Source of the DNA: Nitrosomonas sp.
Lineage (GTDB): Bacteria > Pseudomonadota > Gammaproteobacteria > Burkholderiales > Nitrosomonadaceae
Assembly: GCA_017994575.1 (NCBI GenBank)
Contig: JAGOKN010000011.1
Location: 1-48,485, forward strand
Direction: 5' to 3'
DNA: 48,485 nucleotides
Below, piece by piece: positions 26,780-34,744 of the stretch (the first letter of the stretch is position 1; each line of letters starts with the position of its first letter). Below the pieces are notes generated by a model. The model did no database searches. It was given only the letters and a program-made list of their open reading frames with translations, and had not been told where the DNA came from. The translations under genes and the position numbers were made by a program.

Positions 26780-27385
26780 TAGGTAAACCCCTGGTTCTGC
26801 CGGGGGACTCCTGAAGGTTTGACCGCTACGGCAATCGTCGTACCGTTCTCGTCCCAACCACGAGACGAGGAGTCAAAGATGAAGGAGTGCCAAAGTTTGA
26901 GTCATACACGCTGGGATTGTAAATACCATGTGGTATTTATACCCAAGAGGCGAAAGAAGATGATATTTGGTAAGCTTAGGAAGCACATAAGGGCAGTGCT
27001 GCATGATCTTGCAAATCAGAAAGAAAGCGTGATTGTATAAGGACATTTGATGCTGGACCACATCCACATGTGCATAAGCATGCCACCGAAGTATTCGGTA
27101 TCACATGTTGTGGGTTTTATCAAAGATAAAAGCGCGATAGCAATAGCGCGTCAATTGGGAAGAAGAAAGAACTTTACGGGAGAAAATTTTTGGGCGCGTG
27201 GATATTTTGTTTCGACTGTGGGTTTGGATGAAGAAATGGTCAGAGCATACATACGAGATCAGGAAAAAGAAGATGAGCGATATGATCAGTTGAAATTGGA
27301 TATGTAGAGGCCGCTTTAGCGCCTCAAACAGCCCTTTTGAGAGGCTCCAGCTATAAGCCTCCGGCTCTGCCGGAGGTAATTTAAC
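26780..27385 (+). mobile_element. IS200-type element (defective)
   Basis: A HUH transposase pseudogene is flanked by terminal hairpins: CCCCTGG/CCGGGGG at 26788-26806 and CCTCCGGC-TCT-GCCGGAGG at 27358-27376. There are no terminal inverted repeats, as expected for IS200/IS605. Exact ends are estimated. The hairpins are intact, so it could still be moved by a functional copy elsewhere. Confidence 0.7.
26879..27307 (+). pseudogene. tnpA: IS200-type transposase TnpA with internal stop
   Basis: ATG 26879 begins MKECQSLSHTRWDCKYHVVFIPKRRKK, a standard IS200 TnpA start. Codon 54 (27038-27040) is TAA where relatives have a glutamate in the EGHLM motif; the frame then continues uninterrupted through DHIHMCIS (HUH motif), KYSVSHVVGFIKDKSAI and ARGYFVSTVG (catalytic Tyr). 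A single G-to-T change explains the stop. The total of 142 codons before the final stop is normal for the family. No longer active without readthrough. Confidence 0.85.
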
Positions 27386-27776
27386 TCATTTGCGATATTC
27401 TCAACTCGCGACCTGATCCTTTATGTGACCCCTTATGCGTTTGGTAATTTAACAATTCTGGATGGAAACTTTTCAACGCTGTTTCACCCAGAACCCTGGT
27501 AAGTTTTGCACGCTGATTTACAGCTTGGCTGTCATATACGGCATCCTCGGTGCCTTCATCCGAAAAACCAAAGCATTGCTGCACAATGTACATACGCAGT
27601 ATTCGTTCAAGACCAATCGGTGGATGGCCTCGTTTACCGCTAACCGGATAGTGCGGGGCAATGACATTCAGCAGAGAGGACCAAGGCGTTATTGCTTTGA
27701 TTTCGGACAAAAAGTGATCTCGTCGTGTTTGTTTCTTCTTGGTCGCATATTCCAGGTCAGAAAAACTTGATTGCAT
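27381..27776 (-). pseudogene. IS5-type transposase fragment, second copy
   Basis: It begins at ATG 27776 with MQSSFSDLEYATKKKQTRR and matches the copy at 24113-24604 for about 85 residues, with the intact arginine codon where the first copy has a stop. After AVYDSQA it diverges into unrelated sequence (VNQRAKLTRVLG...), so the rest of the transposase is gone. The matched DNA runs from about 27525 to 27866, in the same orientation as copy 1. Confidence 0.75.
27392..27413 (+). repeat. 22-bp repeat, copy 2
   Basis: Identical to 23244-23265, and lies just outside the right end of the IS200-type element. Confidence 0.6.
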
Positions 27777-27932: not shown

Positions 27933-29216
27933 TTAATAGCCCCCGCCTTTATTCCTGTCAACATCCAGTGCTGTCACCAGGCTCGCACGATTTCCCCAGG
28001 CATTGCGAATATATGACACCACGAGTGCTACTTCTTCATTCCGCAAAATCTGTTGAAACGGTGGCATTCCATAGGGTTTAGGATTTGCTGCCGTGGTGGG
28101 TGAATAACCGCCATTCAGCACACTGTGGATGGCATTTACTGGCGACTTCATCATCACACTGCGATTACCGGCCAACGCAGGATAAATGCCTGACGCACCT
28201 TTTCCGTCAGCACCATGGCAGGTTTGACAATACTCCTCATACAGCTGCCCACCCAAATCTAGATGCCTTCGCAAATTACCCGACATCACCGAAAAGCTGA
28301 CGCCAGGCACGGTACCACTTTCATTTGCTGTGAGTGATTTTAGATAAACTGCCATGGCGTGGACATCTGCTTGCGATAAATATTGCAGGCTCTGCCTGAT
28401 GACAGTCGCCATGGGACCTGATGCTACGGCGCGTTGGGCTATGCCGGTTGTTAGCAATGCAGCGATTTCTTCAATCGCCCAATCACCCACACCCGCTTCC
28501 AGTTGCGAAGACAAAGAAGGAGCGTACCAATTCATGCCCATAATCTGCCCACCCGTCAGCGCATCATCCTGACTGGCACCTAACACATTACGGGTGCTAT
28601 GACAGGCATTACAATGCCCCAATCCCTGCGTCAGATAAGCGCCGCGATTCCAGGCTTCACTTTGGGATTGATCCGGTTCATAGCTACCTGCTTTGAAATA
28701 TAACGCGCGCCAGATCGCTAGCAACGGCTTAAAATTATACGGAAAGAAGATATCATTCGGTGGATTGGATTGCGAAACGGGCGGTAGTGATTGCAGGTAA
28801 GCAAACATCGCATTGGCGTCTTCCCGCGTCACTTTGGTATATTCAGTATAGGGAAAAGCGGGGTACAGCAACCGCCCATCACGCGACTTGCCCTGATGCA
28901 GCGCTTGCCAGAAATCTTCTTCGCTCCATAGACCAATGCCTGTTGCTTTGTCGGGCGTAATATTGGGCGTCACAAAAATACCGAATGATGTCGACAAGCG
29001 ACGTCCACCTGCAAACGGCTGACCGCCTTTGATCGTATGACATCCCATGCAATTACCAACGCGGGTTAGATAAGCGCCATCTACTGCTGCTTGTTGCTTC
29101 TCGATAGCGCGTTTAGGTTCATCAGTAACCATATCTGCCGCAAATGCGATACACCCCCACAGCAAAGCGATGCATACCCAACTGCTGGTAATGAATGTCA
29201 TCGTTAAATGCCTCAT
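27933..29216 (-). CDS. Triheme cytochrome c (AdhB-like)
   Basis: The protein has 427 residues from ATG 29216, with a perfect GGAGG 7 nt upstream and a 4-bp overlap (ATGA) with the preceding gene. The signal peptide is TFITSSWVCIALLWGCIAFA. Three CXXCH sites occur: CMGCH (about 56), CNACH (about 205) and CQTCH (about 325), the spacing of the three-heme subunit of membrane alcohol and gluconate dehydrogenases. It passes electrons from a periplasmic dehydrogenase toward quinone or oxidase in those systems. No dehydrogenase catalytic subunit is adjacent here, so the electron donor is unknown. Confidence 0.88.
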   Translation of the reverse strand: MRHLTMTFITSSWVCIALLWGCIAFAADMVTDEPKRAIEKQQAAVDGAYLTRVGNCMGCHTIKGGQPFAGGRRLSTSFGIFVTPNITPDKATGIGLWSEEDFWQALHQGKSRDGRLLYPAFPYTEYTKVTREDANAMFAYLQSLPPVSQSNPPNDIFFPYNFKPLLAIWRALYFKAGSYEPDQSQSEAWNRGAYLTQGLGHCNACHSTRNVLGASQDDALTGGQIMGMNWYAPSLSSQLEAGVGDWAIEEIAALLTTGIAQRAVASGPMATVIRQSLQYLSQADVHAMAVYLKSLTANESGTVPGVSFSVMSGNLRRHLDLGGQLYEEYCQTCHGADGKGASGIYPALAGNRSVMMKSPVNAIHSVLNGGYSPTTAANPKPYGMPPFQQILRNEEVALVVSYIRNAWGNRASLVTALDVDRNKGGGY

Positions 29217-29932
29217 TGTGCACCTCCATTTTCCTGGATGTTTTGGCGGCAACGATGCACCAGCTTCGGTGAAAGCACATCGAGTGAGCTGGATTCTCCT
29301 GAAACAACGTGGTTCGCTAGCCATTTCGCAATCGCATTGACTTCCTCGTCAGTTAGCTGCTGTGCAATGTCAGACATGCAATCCGACGTCTGGCTTCGCA
29401 TAATGCCTCCATTGTGCCATCCGCTGAGTTGCGCCGTAATATAAGCGCGCGACAATCCCAGCAAACCCGGGATAGCAGGCTCCACACCCATCAAACTATC
29501 ACCATGACAGGTACTGCAAGCCGGAATATCCTGCTCCGGCTTCCCCGAATAGACAAGACGCTCTGCCAGCTTGATTTCTTCGGGTCGCATGTCAATTTGT
29601 TCAGGCGCTGGATAGGGCAATTGTAATGAAGAAAAGTATTGCGCTATTTCCAATAAATACTCATCGGACATGTTTTCCAATAGAATGGCCATCGGCTGAT
29701 AATAGCGCCTGGCATCCCTGAAATTGCGTAACTGATTAAACAGGTACCTGTGCGGTTTACCTGCTATGCGGGGATAATAAGCATCACGCCCTGCTTTGCC
29801 TTCAGCACTATGACAGATGGTGCAGGCTCGAACACGCTCTGTCATCGTATCAGGCACGATGACAGGTGTGCCACCATGCGCATTCGCTATCGCAGCGATA
29901 CCGAGAAACATCAATAGAATAAAATGCAACAT
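29213..29932 (-). CDS. Diheme cytochrome c (c4-like)
   Basis: The protein has 239 residues from ATG 29932, preceded by GAGGGGGG; a longer frame starting at 30037 would overlap the porin gene and lacks a signal at its start. The signal peptide is LHFILLMFLGIAAIANA. Heme sites are CTICH (about 36) and CSTCH (about 138) in two similar halves, with YYPRIAGKPHRYLFNQLRNF, a hallmark of cytochrome c4. Its stop overlaps the triheme cytochrome start, so both are made in fixed ratio. Likely role: periplasmic electron carrier partnered with the triheme protein. Confidence 0.87.
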   Translation of the reverse strand: MLHFILLMFLGIAAIANAHGGTPVIVPDTMTERVRACTICHSAEGKAGRDAYYPRIAGKPHRYLFNQLRNFRDARRYYQPMAILLENMSDEYLLEIAQYFSSLQLPYPAPEQIDMRPEEIKLAERLVYSGKPEQDIPACSTCHGDSLMGVEPAIPGLLGLSRAYITAQLSGWHNGGIMRSQTSDCMSDIAQQLTDEEVNAIAKWLANHVVSGESSSLDVLSPKLVHRCRQNIQENGGAQ

Positions 29933-29955
29933 TGAGGCCCCCCTCAATCTAATTA

Positions 29956-31678: not shown

Positions 31679-31695
31679 TGCATTAATCATGCCAA
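31679..31695 (-). promoter_or_regulatory. Sigma-54 promoter of the porin-cytochrome operon
   Basis: On the minus strand TTGGCATGATTAATGCA has the -24 GG and -12 GC separated by exactly 10 bp and matches the sigma-54 consensus at all but two key positions. The predicted start lies about 60 bp before the porin ATG. A dyad activator site is centred 93 bp upstream of the GG. Confidence 0.8.
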
Positions 31696-31771
31696 GTAAC
31701 AAGATTATGATTTATATGTATATTTTGTTTGTATATTAAAACAGAATTTTGATACTCTCAATATTCTGAGG

Positions 31772-31799
31772 AATAACTCGCAAAAAATTGTGAGTTATT
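31772..31799. promoter_or_regulatory. Enhancer dyad (UAS1) for the porin operon
   Basis: Arms AATAACTCGCAA and TTGTGAGTTATT are inverted (11 of 12 match) around AAAA. The core TCGCAA-N4-TTGTGA recurs as TCACAA-N4-TTGTGA at 32879-32894. Its centre (31785.5) is 93 bp from the -24 GG of the porin promoter. Probably bound by the adjacent sigma-54 activator. Confidence 0.7.
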
Positions 31800-31816
31800 T
31801 TGGAATGATCGATAAA

Positions 31817-32386
31817 AGTGTACCAATCTAAACCCTGCAAGCTGATGTGATGAGCATCAAGTGAAAGGCGATGAAGATGTATACAGTGGAACTATAGGTG
31901 AAGATTCGACGAGCGGTGATGGTAGAAGGCAGAAGCGAATGGGAAGCTGCGCGATATTTTGGAATTAACCGCAAGATTGTCAAGAAGATGTGTCAATATG
32001 CAGTGCCGCCGGTTATCGGCGCAAGCGCGAGTTCGTTTCACCTAAGCTTGCGGGATTCACTGGCATCATTGATACCATTCTGGAAGCTGACAGACAAGTT
32101 CATGTTAAGCAGCGACACACTGCGGTGCGAATATTGGAGCGGTTACGTGATGAACAAGTGTTCTCTGGGATCGGAACAATTAACCGGTGCGTTATTGGAT
32201 CGTTTAACTCACTATGTCCATATTCTCGAAATGAATGGCGAATCCTATCGCCTGGCCACAAGCAAGAAACGGCAAGAACAGACTTTACAAGCCCAGTCGA
32301 TAGACAAGGAGGATGCAAAACCATGAAGCCACCGGCTTTTAGCCGGTGGAGTGTTTACCTAAAGCTTCAAATAAAACCGATACACT
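31817..32386 (+). mobile_element. IS21-family internal-deletion remnant
   Basis: The ends are AGTGTACC at 31817 and the inverted TACACT at 32381-32386. Inside are the first 80 or so codons of an istA-like gene and, fused to it, the last 40 or so codons of an istB-like gene; a hairpin CACCGGC...GCCGGTG lies near the right end at about 32329-32347. About 2 kb of the middle is missing. It sits between UAS1 and the EF-hand gene, splitting what was probably a tighter cluster. Confidence 0.65.
31898..32326 (+). pseudogene. IstA-IstB fusion remnant, frameshifted
   Basis: It starts as VKIRRAVMVEGRSEWEAARYFGINRK, an IS21 IstA N-terminal helix-turn-helix. The frame is lost after CQYAVPP near 32010, where a neighbouring frame continues GYRRKREFVSPKLAGF up to LRDEQVFSG at about 32165. 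It then resumes in the first frame as LTGALLDRLTHYVHILEMNGESYRLATSKKR, which is the C-terminus of the IstB ATPase. The AAA+ part of IstB and the DDE domain of IstA are missing. Non-functional. Confidence 0.7.
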
Positions 32387-32391
32387 AGTTA

Positions 32392-32682
32392 TTATTTATG
32401 TTCAGAGTGCTCATGCATTTTTTTCACCATTTTGTGTAGGTTTCTCATTTCATCGGGATTAAGGTAACCGTCTTTGTTTGTGTCATTTTGATCAAACATC
32501 CACTCATGGTGTTTCACGAATTCTTTTTTACTGACACTGCCGTCTTGTTCTTTTGCCATCACAGAAGAATCACTTTTTCCTTCATTTCCACTTGCTGCAT
32601 TGGCACTAGTTGCGAAACTAGCTGTAGCCGTTAAAAAAAGAATGATTGCAATCATAAATCCCATTTTTTGTTTTTGTATCAT
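32392..32682 (-). CDS. Small periplasmic EF-hand protein
   Basis: A 96-residue protein with a signal peptide (GFMIAIILFLTATASFATSANA) and one canonical EF-hand loop, DTNKDGYLNPDE, with ligands at positions 1, 3, 5 and 12. A degenerate half-hand (KEQDGSVSKKEF) precedes it. The C-terminus is histidine- and lysine-rich (HKMVKKMHEHSEHK). It probably binds calcium or a similar ion in the periplasm. AGAGGC precedes the ATG. A perfect sigma-54 promoter lies 97-114 bp upstream, with the same enhancer dyad as the porin operon, so it belongs to the same regulon. It lacks the proline at loop position 2 seen in lanmodulin. Confidence 0.82.
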   Translation of the reverse strand: MIQKQKMGFMIAIILFLTATASFATSANAASGNEGKSDSSVMAKEQDGSVSKKEFVKHHEWMFDQNDTNKDGYLNPDEMRNLHKMVKKMHEHSEHK

Positions 32683-32778
32683 AGCGATGCCTCTTTAGTT
32701 TAGTTTTCATAAATCATTAAACGATTTTAAAAAATGACATTTCCTCATAGTGTATAAGCAACTGTCATAACCTCTTTA

Positions 32779-32796
32779 TCGCAACAATCGTGCCAA
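32779..32796 (-). promoter_or_regulatory. Sigma-54 promoter of the EF-hand gene
   Basis: On the minus strand TTGGCACGATTGTTGCGA matches TTGGCACG-N4-TTGC perfectly, with GG-N10-GC spacing. It is about 85 bp upstream of the EF-hand start once the transcription start is placed. UAS2 is centred 93 bp upstream of its GG. Confidence 0.88.
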
Positions 32797-32878
32797 TTTA
32801 TAATTTATTGATTAATAGATAATTTATTAATTATAGCGGTATCAAAAAGTTATGATTTCCAAATTTCTATGATACGAT

Positions 32879-32894
32879 TCACAAAAACTTGTGA
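32879..32894. promoter_or_regulatory. Enhancer dyad (UAS2), overlapping the regulator start
   Basis: TCACAA-AAAC-TTGTGA is a perfect 6-bp dyad matching UAS1. Its centre (32886.5) is 93 bp from the -24 GG of the EF-hand promoter. It lies immediately before, and partly over, the possible start codons of the divergent sigma-54 activator, so binding could also repress that gene. Confidence 0.7.
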
Positions 32895-32899
32895 TTTTT

Positions 32900-34744
32900 A
32901 TGATAATTAATTTTGATTTGTGCTTCCGCCATTCACCGTTGTTTGCGGCGATTATCGATGAAACATATGCCTGCCGTGATATCAATACGGTCTGGCGAAA
33001 ATATCTGGGGCTGCCGGGCACCGATGCTGTTTCATACCCGTTCGAGGCGTTATTCAACCAGCAGAACGATGCTGCGCTCGTCAAGGAGATTACACAGGTT
33101 ATACAGAACGGTATTGTGATGAGTGGCAGGCCGGTATCGCTGTCGCGGCTACAGTCGGAACAGGACCATACCGAAAGCGTTACGCTTCGGGGCATTCTGT
33201 CGGCATGGCGCATAGAACAAGCAGACGACAAACGACAATATGCGCTGCTAGTATTTACAGAAACAGCAGAATACAGTCGTGCGATCAATGAGCTCAATCA
33301 ATTGCAAAAGACGCATGAATTGATTCTTAAAGCGGTGGGAGAAGGGATTTACGGCGTTGATACGCAAGGCAATACAACCTTTGTAAATGAGGCAGCGACC
33401 CAGATTCTGGGATGGCGTGCCGAAGATGTCATTGGAAAGTCGCTGCACAACATCCACCACCATTCCCATCTGGACGGCAGGCCATATCCAAGTAACGAAT
33501 GCCCGATTTATCGTGCATTTACAGATGGTGAAATACACCAGGGAGATGATGAATTCTTCTGGCACACAGACGGCACGCCAGTTCCCGTTGAATATATCAG
33601 TACGCCTATTCGTGAGAATGGCGAGCTGAAAGGGGCGGTTGTTGTCTATAGAGACATCACTGAGCGCAAAAGAAACGAACAGCAACGTGAAGCGGCGTAT
33701 GAGCAGATCAAAATATTGAAAGACTTGCTGGAGCATGAGCGTGATTATCTACGTGATGAAATCAATATCACGATCAACTTCGGCGAGATTATTGGCGAAA
33801 GTCAAGCCTTAAAACGTACGCTTGCTCAGATTGAAGCAGTCGCCAAAATGCCGACCAGTGTGCTGATTCTGGGTGAGTCCGGTGTTGGAAAAGAAATGGT
33901 TGCACGTGCAATCCATGCGAATAGCGCCAGAGCTGACAAGCAACTGGTGAAAGTGAATTGCGCTTCTATTCCTAAGAATCTTTTTGAGAGCGAATTCTTT
34001 GGGCATGTGCGCGGATCGTTTACTGGTGCTCATCGCGACCGGGTTGGACGTTTTCATCTGGCAGCGGGCGGCACTCTTTTCCTTGATGAAATCGGTGAGA
34101 TCCCTCTGGATTTACAAGGAAAATTATTACGCGTTTTGCAAGAACATGAATTTGAGCGTGTGGGGGATGATAAAACAATTAAAATTGATGTCCGTATTAT
34201 TGCTGCAACCAACCGTAACTTAAAGGACGAAGTCGATGCCGGACGATTTCGTGAAGACTTGTTTTATCGCCTGAGTGTTTTTCCGATCGAAGTGCCGCCA
34301 TTGAGGGAGCGTATCAAAGATATCGGTCCATTAGCAGTCCATTTCCTGCAGAGCATCTGCACAGAACTGGGACATGAGCCTTTATCATTAACTCAACAAC
34401 AACTTGACAGTCTGAATAAATATCATTGGCCGGGTAATATCAGAGAGCTTAGAAATGTCATGGAACGGGCTGTCATTCTGACAAAAGGCAAGCGACTCAG
34501 ACTCGATCTCGCGATGCCCGGCAGCCATGAAGCCAAGCAAATATCGGCCTATATACCCATCGAGGAAACAGAATTCGTTACCGAGATAGTTTTTCGTGAG
34601 AAGGAAAAAGCAAACATGTATGCAGTCTTGCGGCACGCAAACTGGCGCATATCCGGCACGGACGGCGCCGCGGAATTACTGGGCATTAAACCGTCTACCT
34701 TTACTTACAGGATGAAATTATATGGCATTAAAAAATCTGATTAA
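32900..34744 (+). CDS. Sigma-54-dependent transcriptional activator (PAS-AAA+-Fis)
   Basis: The protein has 614 residues from ATG 32900; a GTG at 32891 inside UAS2 is in frame but less likely. There is no strong Shine-Dalgarno at either. It has an N-terminal degenerate sensory domain (1-120) and a PAS domain at about 137-255 (ILKAVGEGIYGVDTQGNTTFVNEAATQILGW, ending VVYRDITERKR). The AAA+ domain is at about 294-530 with Walker A GESGVGKE (about 324), sigma-54 loop GSFTGA (about 371, variant of GAFTGA), Walker B GGTLFLDEIGE and a Fis-type helix-turn-helix at the C-terminus (ISGTDGAAELLGIKPSTFTYRMKL). There is no receiver domain, so it senses a signal directly through PAS. It probably activates the two sigma-54 promoters next door. 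Confidence 0.92.
   Translation: MIINFDLCFRHSPLFAAIIDETYACRDINTVWRKYLGLPGTDAVSYPFEALFNQQNDAALVKEITQVIQNGIVMSGRPVSLSRLQSEQDHTESVTLRGILSAWRIEQADDKRQYALLVFTETAEYSRAINELNQLQKTHELILKAVGEGIYGVDTQGNTTFVNEAATQILGWRAEDVIGKSLHNIHHHSHLDGRPYPSNECPIYRAFTDGEIHQGDDEFFWHTDGTPVPVEYISTPIRENGELKGAVVVYRDITERKRNEQQREAAYEQIKILKDLLEHERDYLRDEINITINFGEIIGESQALKRTLAQIEAVAKMPTSVLILGESGVGKEMVARAIHANSARADKQLVKVNCASIPKNLFESEFFGHVRGSFTGAHRDRVGRFHLAAGGTLFLDEIGEIPLDLQGKLLRVLQEHEFERVGDDKTIKIDVRIIAATNRNLKDEVDAGRFREDLFYRLSVFPIEVPPLRERIKDIGPLAVHFLQSICTELGHEPLSLTQQQLDSLNKYHWPGNIRELRNVMERAVILTKGKRLRLDLAMPGSHEAKQISAYIPIEETEFVTEIVFREKEKANMYAVLRHANWRISGTDGAAELLGIKPSTFTYRMKLYGIKKSD

Follow-up and report, generated by a model that had tools for sequence, protein, structure and literature searches.

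The window, which denotes the whole analysed stretch of 48,485 nucleotides, comes from a 2.86-Mb Nitrosomonas genome of 85.8% completeness in which rpoN was found. An activator gene on the plus strand (32900..34744) encodes 614 residues from the ATG at 32900; an in-frame GTG at 32891, an alternative start, would fall within the first enhancer dyad described below. Two units lie on the minus strand. The nearer consists of a gene for an EF-hand protein of 96 residues (32392..32682), whose N-terminus resembles a signal peptide by eye. The farther comprises an outer-membrane porin of the alginate-export family (PF13372; 29956..31608; 550 residues) and two c-type cytochromes, CYT1 (29213..29935; 240 residues, two CxxCH motifs) and CYT2 (27933..29222; 429 residues, three CxxCH motifs). 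Between the units is an IS21 remnant on the plus strand (31898..32326), recognised by Pfam as the C-terminus of IstB. Transposase remnants were found in all at 26819-27307, 27381-27776 and 31898-32326 (IS200-like by eye, DUF772 and IS21 by Pfam), and their position, flanking and splitting the porin-cytochrome and EF-hand units, suggests movement.

Our guess is that porin and cytochromes serve electron transfer in the cell envelope as an accessory module. We make no claim of extracellular electron transfer, for CYT1 scored only 43.2 bits against the NCBIfam PdsA model (cut-off 330; PMC8805035, in part). The unit may be a mosaic: outside the near-identical genome G083, the window porin and CYT2 were nearest to copies in G069 and G027, but the identities of the window activator to its relatives (74% to L050, 77% to L048 and L049, 79% to L034) single out no donors. 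Among these near porins, the one in G069:C28 is an unlinked paralogue. Porin matches occurred in 81/85 Nitrosomonas genomes; 20 unlinked copies (L096-L115) have no adjacent CYT1 or CYT2, dyad cassette or activator, among them one in the source genome itself (L096, G000:C75:8540-10168), which is 82% identical.

The domain search bore out the PAS-AAA+-Fis order that an earlier, sequence-only reading of this DNA had assigned to the adjoining gene: a PAS domain is followed by the sigma-54 AAA+ domain PF00158 (242.6 bits) and the Fis-type helix-turn-helix PF02954 (24.5 bits, cut-off 22). We take GESGVGKE and LFLDEIGE to be the Walker A and B motifs, and GSFTGA to be a variant of the GAFTGA loop. 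With the AAA+ domain and its motifs, the Fis-type helix-turn-helix, -24/-12 promoters at the targets and rpoN in the genome, the protein has these sequence-level attributes of a bEBP. Its score against the NorR equivalog model was 361.8 bits (cut-off 476), and a GAF domain was not among its listed domains, PAS being found instead. Scores against PrdR (the best, 377.8 bits, cut-off 795) and NifA (364.8 bits, cut-off 528.85) were likewise low, and no cut-off of the other NCBIfam bEBP equivalogs (PrdR, NifA, NtrC and others) was passed among the 25 of 47 matches listed.

Two enhancer-promoter cassettes in the window

Each minus-strand unit is preceded by a cassette on the same strand. In cassette A, beside the activator, site 1 (32879..32894; TCACAAGTTTTTGTGA, its dyad listed as TCACAAAAACTTGTGA) is followed at +22 bp by site 2 (32857..32872; TCATAGAAATTTGGAA), degenerate in the window and near-perfect in many orthologues, at +39 bp by site 3 (32840..32855; TCATAACTTTTTGATA), and then by a sigma-54 -24/-12 promoter (32781..32796; TTGGCACGATTGTTGC) before the EF-hand gene. 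In cassette B, site 1 (31778..31793; TCACAATTTTTTGCGA, dyad TCGCAAAAAATTGTGA), site 2 at +22 bp (31756..31771; CCTCAGAATATTGAGA) and a weak site 3 at +39 bp (31739..31754; TATCAAAATTCTGTTT) stand before a -24/-12 promoter (31680..31695; TTGGCATGATTAATGC) that precedes the porin-cytochrome operon. A pattern search of the window found both dyads and both minus-strand promoters where the sequence-only reading had placed them, and the 93.0 bp that it gave from GG to dyad holds at both. The two dyads, which it had called identical, have only the frame TCRCAA-N4-TTGTGA in common; their 4-bp cores differ, and the lower one departs from a perfect palindrome at one position. It had also counted one dyad per enhancer, and there are three, at 0, +22 and +39 bp, some of them degenerate.

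Dyads with up to two mismatches occur in the window at chance level (11 found, against a mean of 11.02 in shuffled sequences), so it is the exact form, its association with promoters and its conservation that give the observation weight. In the genome the exact dyad occurs just twice (mononucleotide expectation, 0.83), each time with a -24/-12 element 93 bp away. When two dyads 22 bp apart were sought as a doublet, with up to three mismatches, the genome matched only at the two window cassettes, the six rows obtained corresponding to strand and overlapping frames of these two places. At 85.8% completeness, the assembly could lack a further target.

Conservation and specificity in Nitrosomonas

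The first 287 residues of the activator were searched against 125 genomes of the family, with matches in 34. Clear orthologues, 57-100% identical over nearly the full query, were present in 22 of these (the window's own included), all in the genus; matches in the remaining genomes were weaker. Together with the window, 21 wider loci were read for cassettes, several of them cut by contig ends. The sequence-only reading had proposed a search of related Nitrosomonas for the dyad and promoter about 93 bp apart, and had named lack of conservation beside orthologous genes as its refutation; the prediction survived, the cassette being present at 21/22 activator loci. In total, 23 cassettes were found, with the spacing at 93 bp in 17, 92 in four and 94 in two. 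The strict promoter form GG-N10-GC fits both window promoters, but in relatives TTGA frequently takes the place of TTGC at the -12 element; the strict pattern missed many true promoters for this reason and was replaced by TGGCAYR-N5-TG.

Gene content around the cassettes varies. The EF-hand gene is present at six loci, and L033, L039, L041, L044 and L046 have homologues in the corresponding position; L034, L040 and L042 have cytochromes and no porin match, and in the part of L045 that was read the porin stands without the others. The exceptional locus L052 (G072) carries the activator and dyads 23 bp apart without a -24 element (L052:9200-9850), and no porin, cytochrome or EF-hand match was found nearby. 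At L034, the enhancer beside the activator is an orphan whose promoter was lost, and a cassette stands before the cytochromes instead. Displaced cassettes, namely those of the window porin unit, L033 and L034, are still at 93 bp.

Specificity was assessed over 85 genomes of the genus with a composite pattern fixed at 93 bp, which leaves loci at 92 and 94 bp uncounted. It gave 17 matches in 15 genomes, all at activator loci, and its reversed control gave none; the probability of all 15 genomes falling among the 22 carriers is P = 9.5e-12, phylogeny ignored. A pattern with one half-site (TTGTGA-N{81,85}-TGGCAYG-N5-TG) was rejected as too unspecific and replaced by this composite pattern: of its 22 matches in 18/85 genomes, 13 were at activator loci and nine elsewhere, with five in the reversed control. 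Hand-picked from longer lists, 20 CYT1-CYT2 loci without the activator and 20 unlinked porin-paralogue loci were read as controls. No cassette was found upstream of the former in the 19 informative cases (L212 is cut by a contig end), with best matrix scores of -27.6 to -63.6 versus 65.7 to 92.5 for the training cassettes, nor in any of the latter. The matrix was trained on 19 of the 23 cassettes, and the offset scan reported below used 19 of the 22 Nitrosomonas loci, with the near-duplicates L033, L037 and L049 dropped. In three of the genomes without activator and cassette, an activator fragment of 41-42 residues (about residues 511-552) lies divergent from CYT1 (L195:3700-4300, L201:3700-4300, L203:3650-4250), which indicates that activator and cassette were lost there together.

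Conservation, the activator-free controls and the lack of any further copy in the genome support the proposal of the sequence-only reading that one activator would serve both units as a self-contained regulon; very probably, a single regulator gene turns on both adjoining gene sets by way of one three-site element, repeated at a fixed distance from each promoter. We think it improbable that only the EF-hand promoter is live and that the porin cassette survives as the decaying remnant of an operon that has recombined. The IS21 remnant that separates the porin unit from the activator, the weak site 3 and the linker without a -10 hexamer would fit such decay, but sites 1 and 2 and the -24/-12 promoter are intact, the spacing is still exactly 93 bp, the reading frames of the porin and both cytochromes are open, and in L034 the cytochromes are preceded by a displaced cassette similar in sequence.

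Relatives outside the genus and the three-site geometry

A sample of 274 genomes of the class contained five closer orthologues of the activator (L158-L162), 57-64% identical, that of L162 aligning only from about residue 130. All five loci have the cassette, at 93-95 bp; with 92-94 bp within the genus, the claim of a common helical phase is upheld within those limits. These loci were not in the training set and scored 14.8 to 39.6, the largest shuffle reaching -28.3; with 20 mononucleotide shuffles for each locus, this null is a weak one. No match to the porin, the cytochromes or the EF-hand protein was found near L158-L162. A divergent DUF1348 gene was identified by Pfam in the three loci tested (L158, L159 and L161); in L162 one was seen by eye, second in line, and in L160 other genes come first. 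After the DUF1348 gene of L159 (L159:4541-6541) are two genes resembling di-haem cytochrome c peroxidases, one by Pfam and one by eye, which hints that redox genes may turn up repeatedly among the targets. Genome G320 (contig C217) carries the three-site cassette twice, at L160:9102 and L160:16940, about 7.8 kb apart and nearly identical, and an IS21-like transposase frame was seen by eye between them.

More distant homologues in the class are 45-54% identical, and 12 of the 14 were read (G201:C136 and G263:C1 were left out). The TCACAA cassette was absent from all 12 loci. Ten of them (L163-L171 and L173) have dyads of the form TTACGA-N4-TCGTAA instead, mostly at 0/+22/+39 and weak in L173, with the -24 element 115-121 bp from site 1. 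Cyanase genes adjoin six of these ten activators, by Pfam in the four tested (L165, L166, L169 and L171) and by eye in L168 and L170; at the other four, the part that was read showed none. In a midpoint-rooted tree, which took 20 of the 22 Nitrosomonas activators (L046 and L051 are cut by contig ends), proteins of the TCACAA type form a clade of 25 rows (support 100/100) and those of the TTACGA type a clade of ten (92/87). The recognition helix reads S-T-x-x-Y in 25/25 of the former and T-T-x-x-S in 10/10 of the latter. The half-site TTACGA of the sister clade would thus match its changed helix, which supports the pairing of protein and site; since helix and half-site changed in a single evolutionary event, this does not amount to proof.

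The geometry was examined by a scan in which only the offsets were free, the half-site patterns having been chosen after the sites were seen. Among 360 pairs of offsets, (22,17) came out best for the 19 Nitrosomonas loci, again for the five loci outside the genus and again for the ten sister-clade loci, the last scanned with another half-site. Some loci fitted poorly: L052 has no real triple, L165 was better at 21/17 and L170 at 22/18, and L173 was poor. Site 3 is weak in several orthologues.

Equal spacing might be a mere inheritance from an ancestral promoter, phase being under no functional constraint, an explanation to which we give little credence. It is favoured by the homology of the genus cassettes by position and by spacers that within the genus are in many cases still 40-65% identical, reaching 74% (ungapped). 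But the stretch from enhancer to -24 is only 44% identical between the two window cassettes, which also rules out a fresh duplication as the source of their equal spacing, and identity is 18-50% where one partner lies outside the genus (ungapped and right-aligned, hence understated where lengths differ; 17 of 27 cassettes listed, L162 omitted), yet the distance stays at 92-95 bp and (22,17) is best in the TTACGA clade too. That spacer sequence diverged and length varied by no more than 3 bp points to selection on length.

The half-sites TTGTGA and TCACAA superficially resemble those of CRP/FNR. That the dyads serve another factor, such as a global regulator of the CRP/FNR type, and the sigma-54 promoters a different activator, is very unlikely, as the site of a global regulator should recur and the doublet is confined to the two window cassettes in this genome, the composite cassette occurs genus-wide only at activator loci and is missing from the 19 informative activator-free operon copies, and a different recognition helix goes with a different site.

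Proposed mechanism and relation to known systems

We consider it highly likely that the window encodes an undescribed sigma-54 activator (bEBP), sister to a clade that mostly adjoins cyanase genes, which with a NorR-like layout controls a local regulon of two promoters. Putative binding by this activator is inferred from co-occurrence, co-loss and covariation of the recognition helix. The protein would bind three dyads with the consensus TCACAA-N4-TTGTGA, centred at 0, +22 and +39 bp, and the three bound dimers would, by analogy with NorR, template the AAA+ hexamer. The hexamer would then loop onto sigma-54 polymerase at the -24/-12 promoter, 92-94 bp separating its GG from site 1, with cassette A beside the activator driving the EF-hand gene and cassette B the porin-cytochrome operon.

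Cassette A may also act on the activator gene. A putative -10 hexamer on the plus strand (TACGAT, 32873..32878) coincides exactly with the linker that joins sites 1 and 2, and a weak putative -35 (TTATGA, 32850..32855, plus strand) lies 17 bp before it, poor at 3/6 positions of the consensus. The linker reads TANNAT in 18/20 activator-proximal Nitrosomonas cassettes, and in many of these a weak TTRTGA is found 17 bp upstream. These elements look like the activator's own promoter, which occupied sites would block; a sigma-70-type -10 hexamer filling the linker would thus make cassette A a repressor of the activator gene. We lean somewhat towards such autorepression through the activator-side cassette. 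TANNAT is absent at the linker register in L040 and L053, from the three displaced cassettes (those of the window and L033 are near-identical) and from the four loci tested outside the genus, and with its absence from L040, L053 and the outside loci, autorepression may be genus-specific or wrong.

The sequence-only reading did not recognise a described system here. In the open-licence literature, we found no description of the activator family, its site, the 22/17 geometry or its Nitrosomonas targets, nor any described sigma-54 regulon of this sort for Nitrosomonas; the layout, for its part, resembles NorR and CynF, and the system belongs to the known kind in which a bEBP gene diverges from its operon, as in NorR-norVW and cynF-cynABDS. 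In Pseudomonas pseudoalcaligenes CECT5344, according to the part of PMC6627978 available, CynF is essential, and putative promoters of the sigma-54 type at cynA and of the sigma-70 type at cynF were assigned; no CynF binding site is given in that part. The likeness consists in a Fis-type sigma-54 activator divergent from an operon, with a putative sigma-54 promoter at the operon and a putative sigma-70 promoter at the regulator (PMC6627978, in part). The nearest relatives found, the cyanase-linked sister clade (45-54% identical), largely share the 22/17 enhancer geometry; we infer from gene context that this clade is CynF, and TTACGA-N4-TCGTAA is possibly the CynF site. The window clade differs in its TCACAA sites, against TTACGA in the CynF-like clade, in an enhancer about 22 bp nearer the -24 element (92-95 versus 115-121 bp to site 1) and in its neighbours, which are porin, cytochromes, EF-hand and DUF1348 genes, unlike the CynF context. 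The window activator itself adjoins no cynABDS operon, its neighbours being the porin, the cytochromes and the EF-hand gene, and it falls outside the cyanase-linked clade, in the separate clade of 25 rows (100/100, midpoint root).

Three enhancer sites in the gap between regulator and operon are common to the window system and to NorR-norVW of Escherichia coli, where, as far as the consulted part of PMC2941729 goes, they are essential for activation and scaffold a higher oligomer. With three such sites upstream of a sigma-54 promoter, the window activator works like NorR in layout without being a member of that family: NorR is under an NO-responsive GAF domain, and the window protein has PAS. 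In autorepressed sigma-54 regulators of the XylR type, enhancer sites overlap the regulator's own sigma-70 promoter; a putative overlap of this kind is the likeness in cassette A, and the sensor domain and targets differ. Overall, the observation of the sequence-only reading was right and its inference largely so, the finding being richer than it described and of a known kind.

The layout is kept in distant relatives though the controlled genes and, in the sister clade, the DNA letters read differ. On a broader reading, for and against which the balance is about even, an unrecognised clade of sigma-54 activators would carry an ancient and inflexible template for three dimers (22 + 17 bp) plus promoter as a portable cassette, the template being kept while the half-site (TTACGA, TCACAA), two recognition-helix positions (T-T-x-x-S, S-T-x-x-Y) and the controlled genes (cyanate use, DUF1348, an ammonia-oxidiser porin-cytochrome envelope module) changed. 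The cassette tracked the activator and not the structural genes, which makes this a plain example of a regulatory module whose targets change. Nitrosomonas gains a predicted local regulator with a binding site, promoters and a regulon, and the 22/17 geometry, kept with two half-sites, is a natural experiment on DNA recognition by bEBPs and on the templating of a hexamer by three dimers. If the portable-cassette reading is true, the two clades would provide two orthogonal, geometry-matched enhancer systems for testing how DNA-bound dimers template the hexamer.
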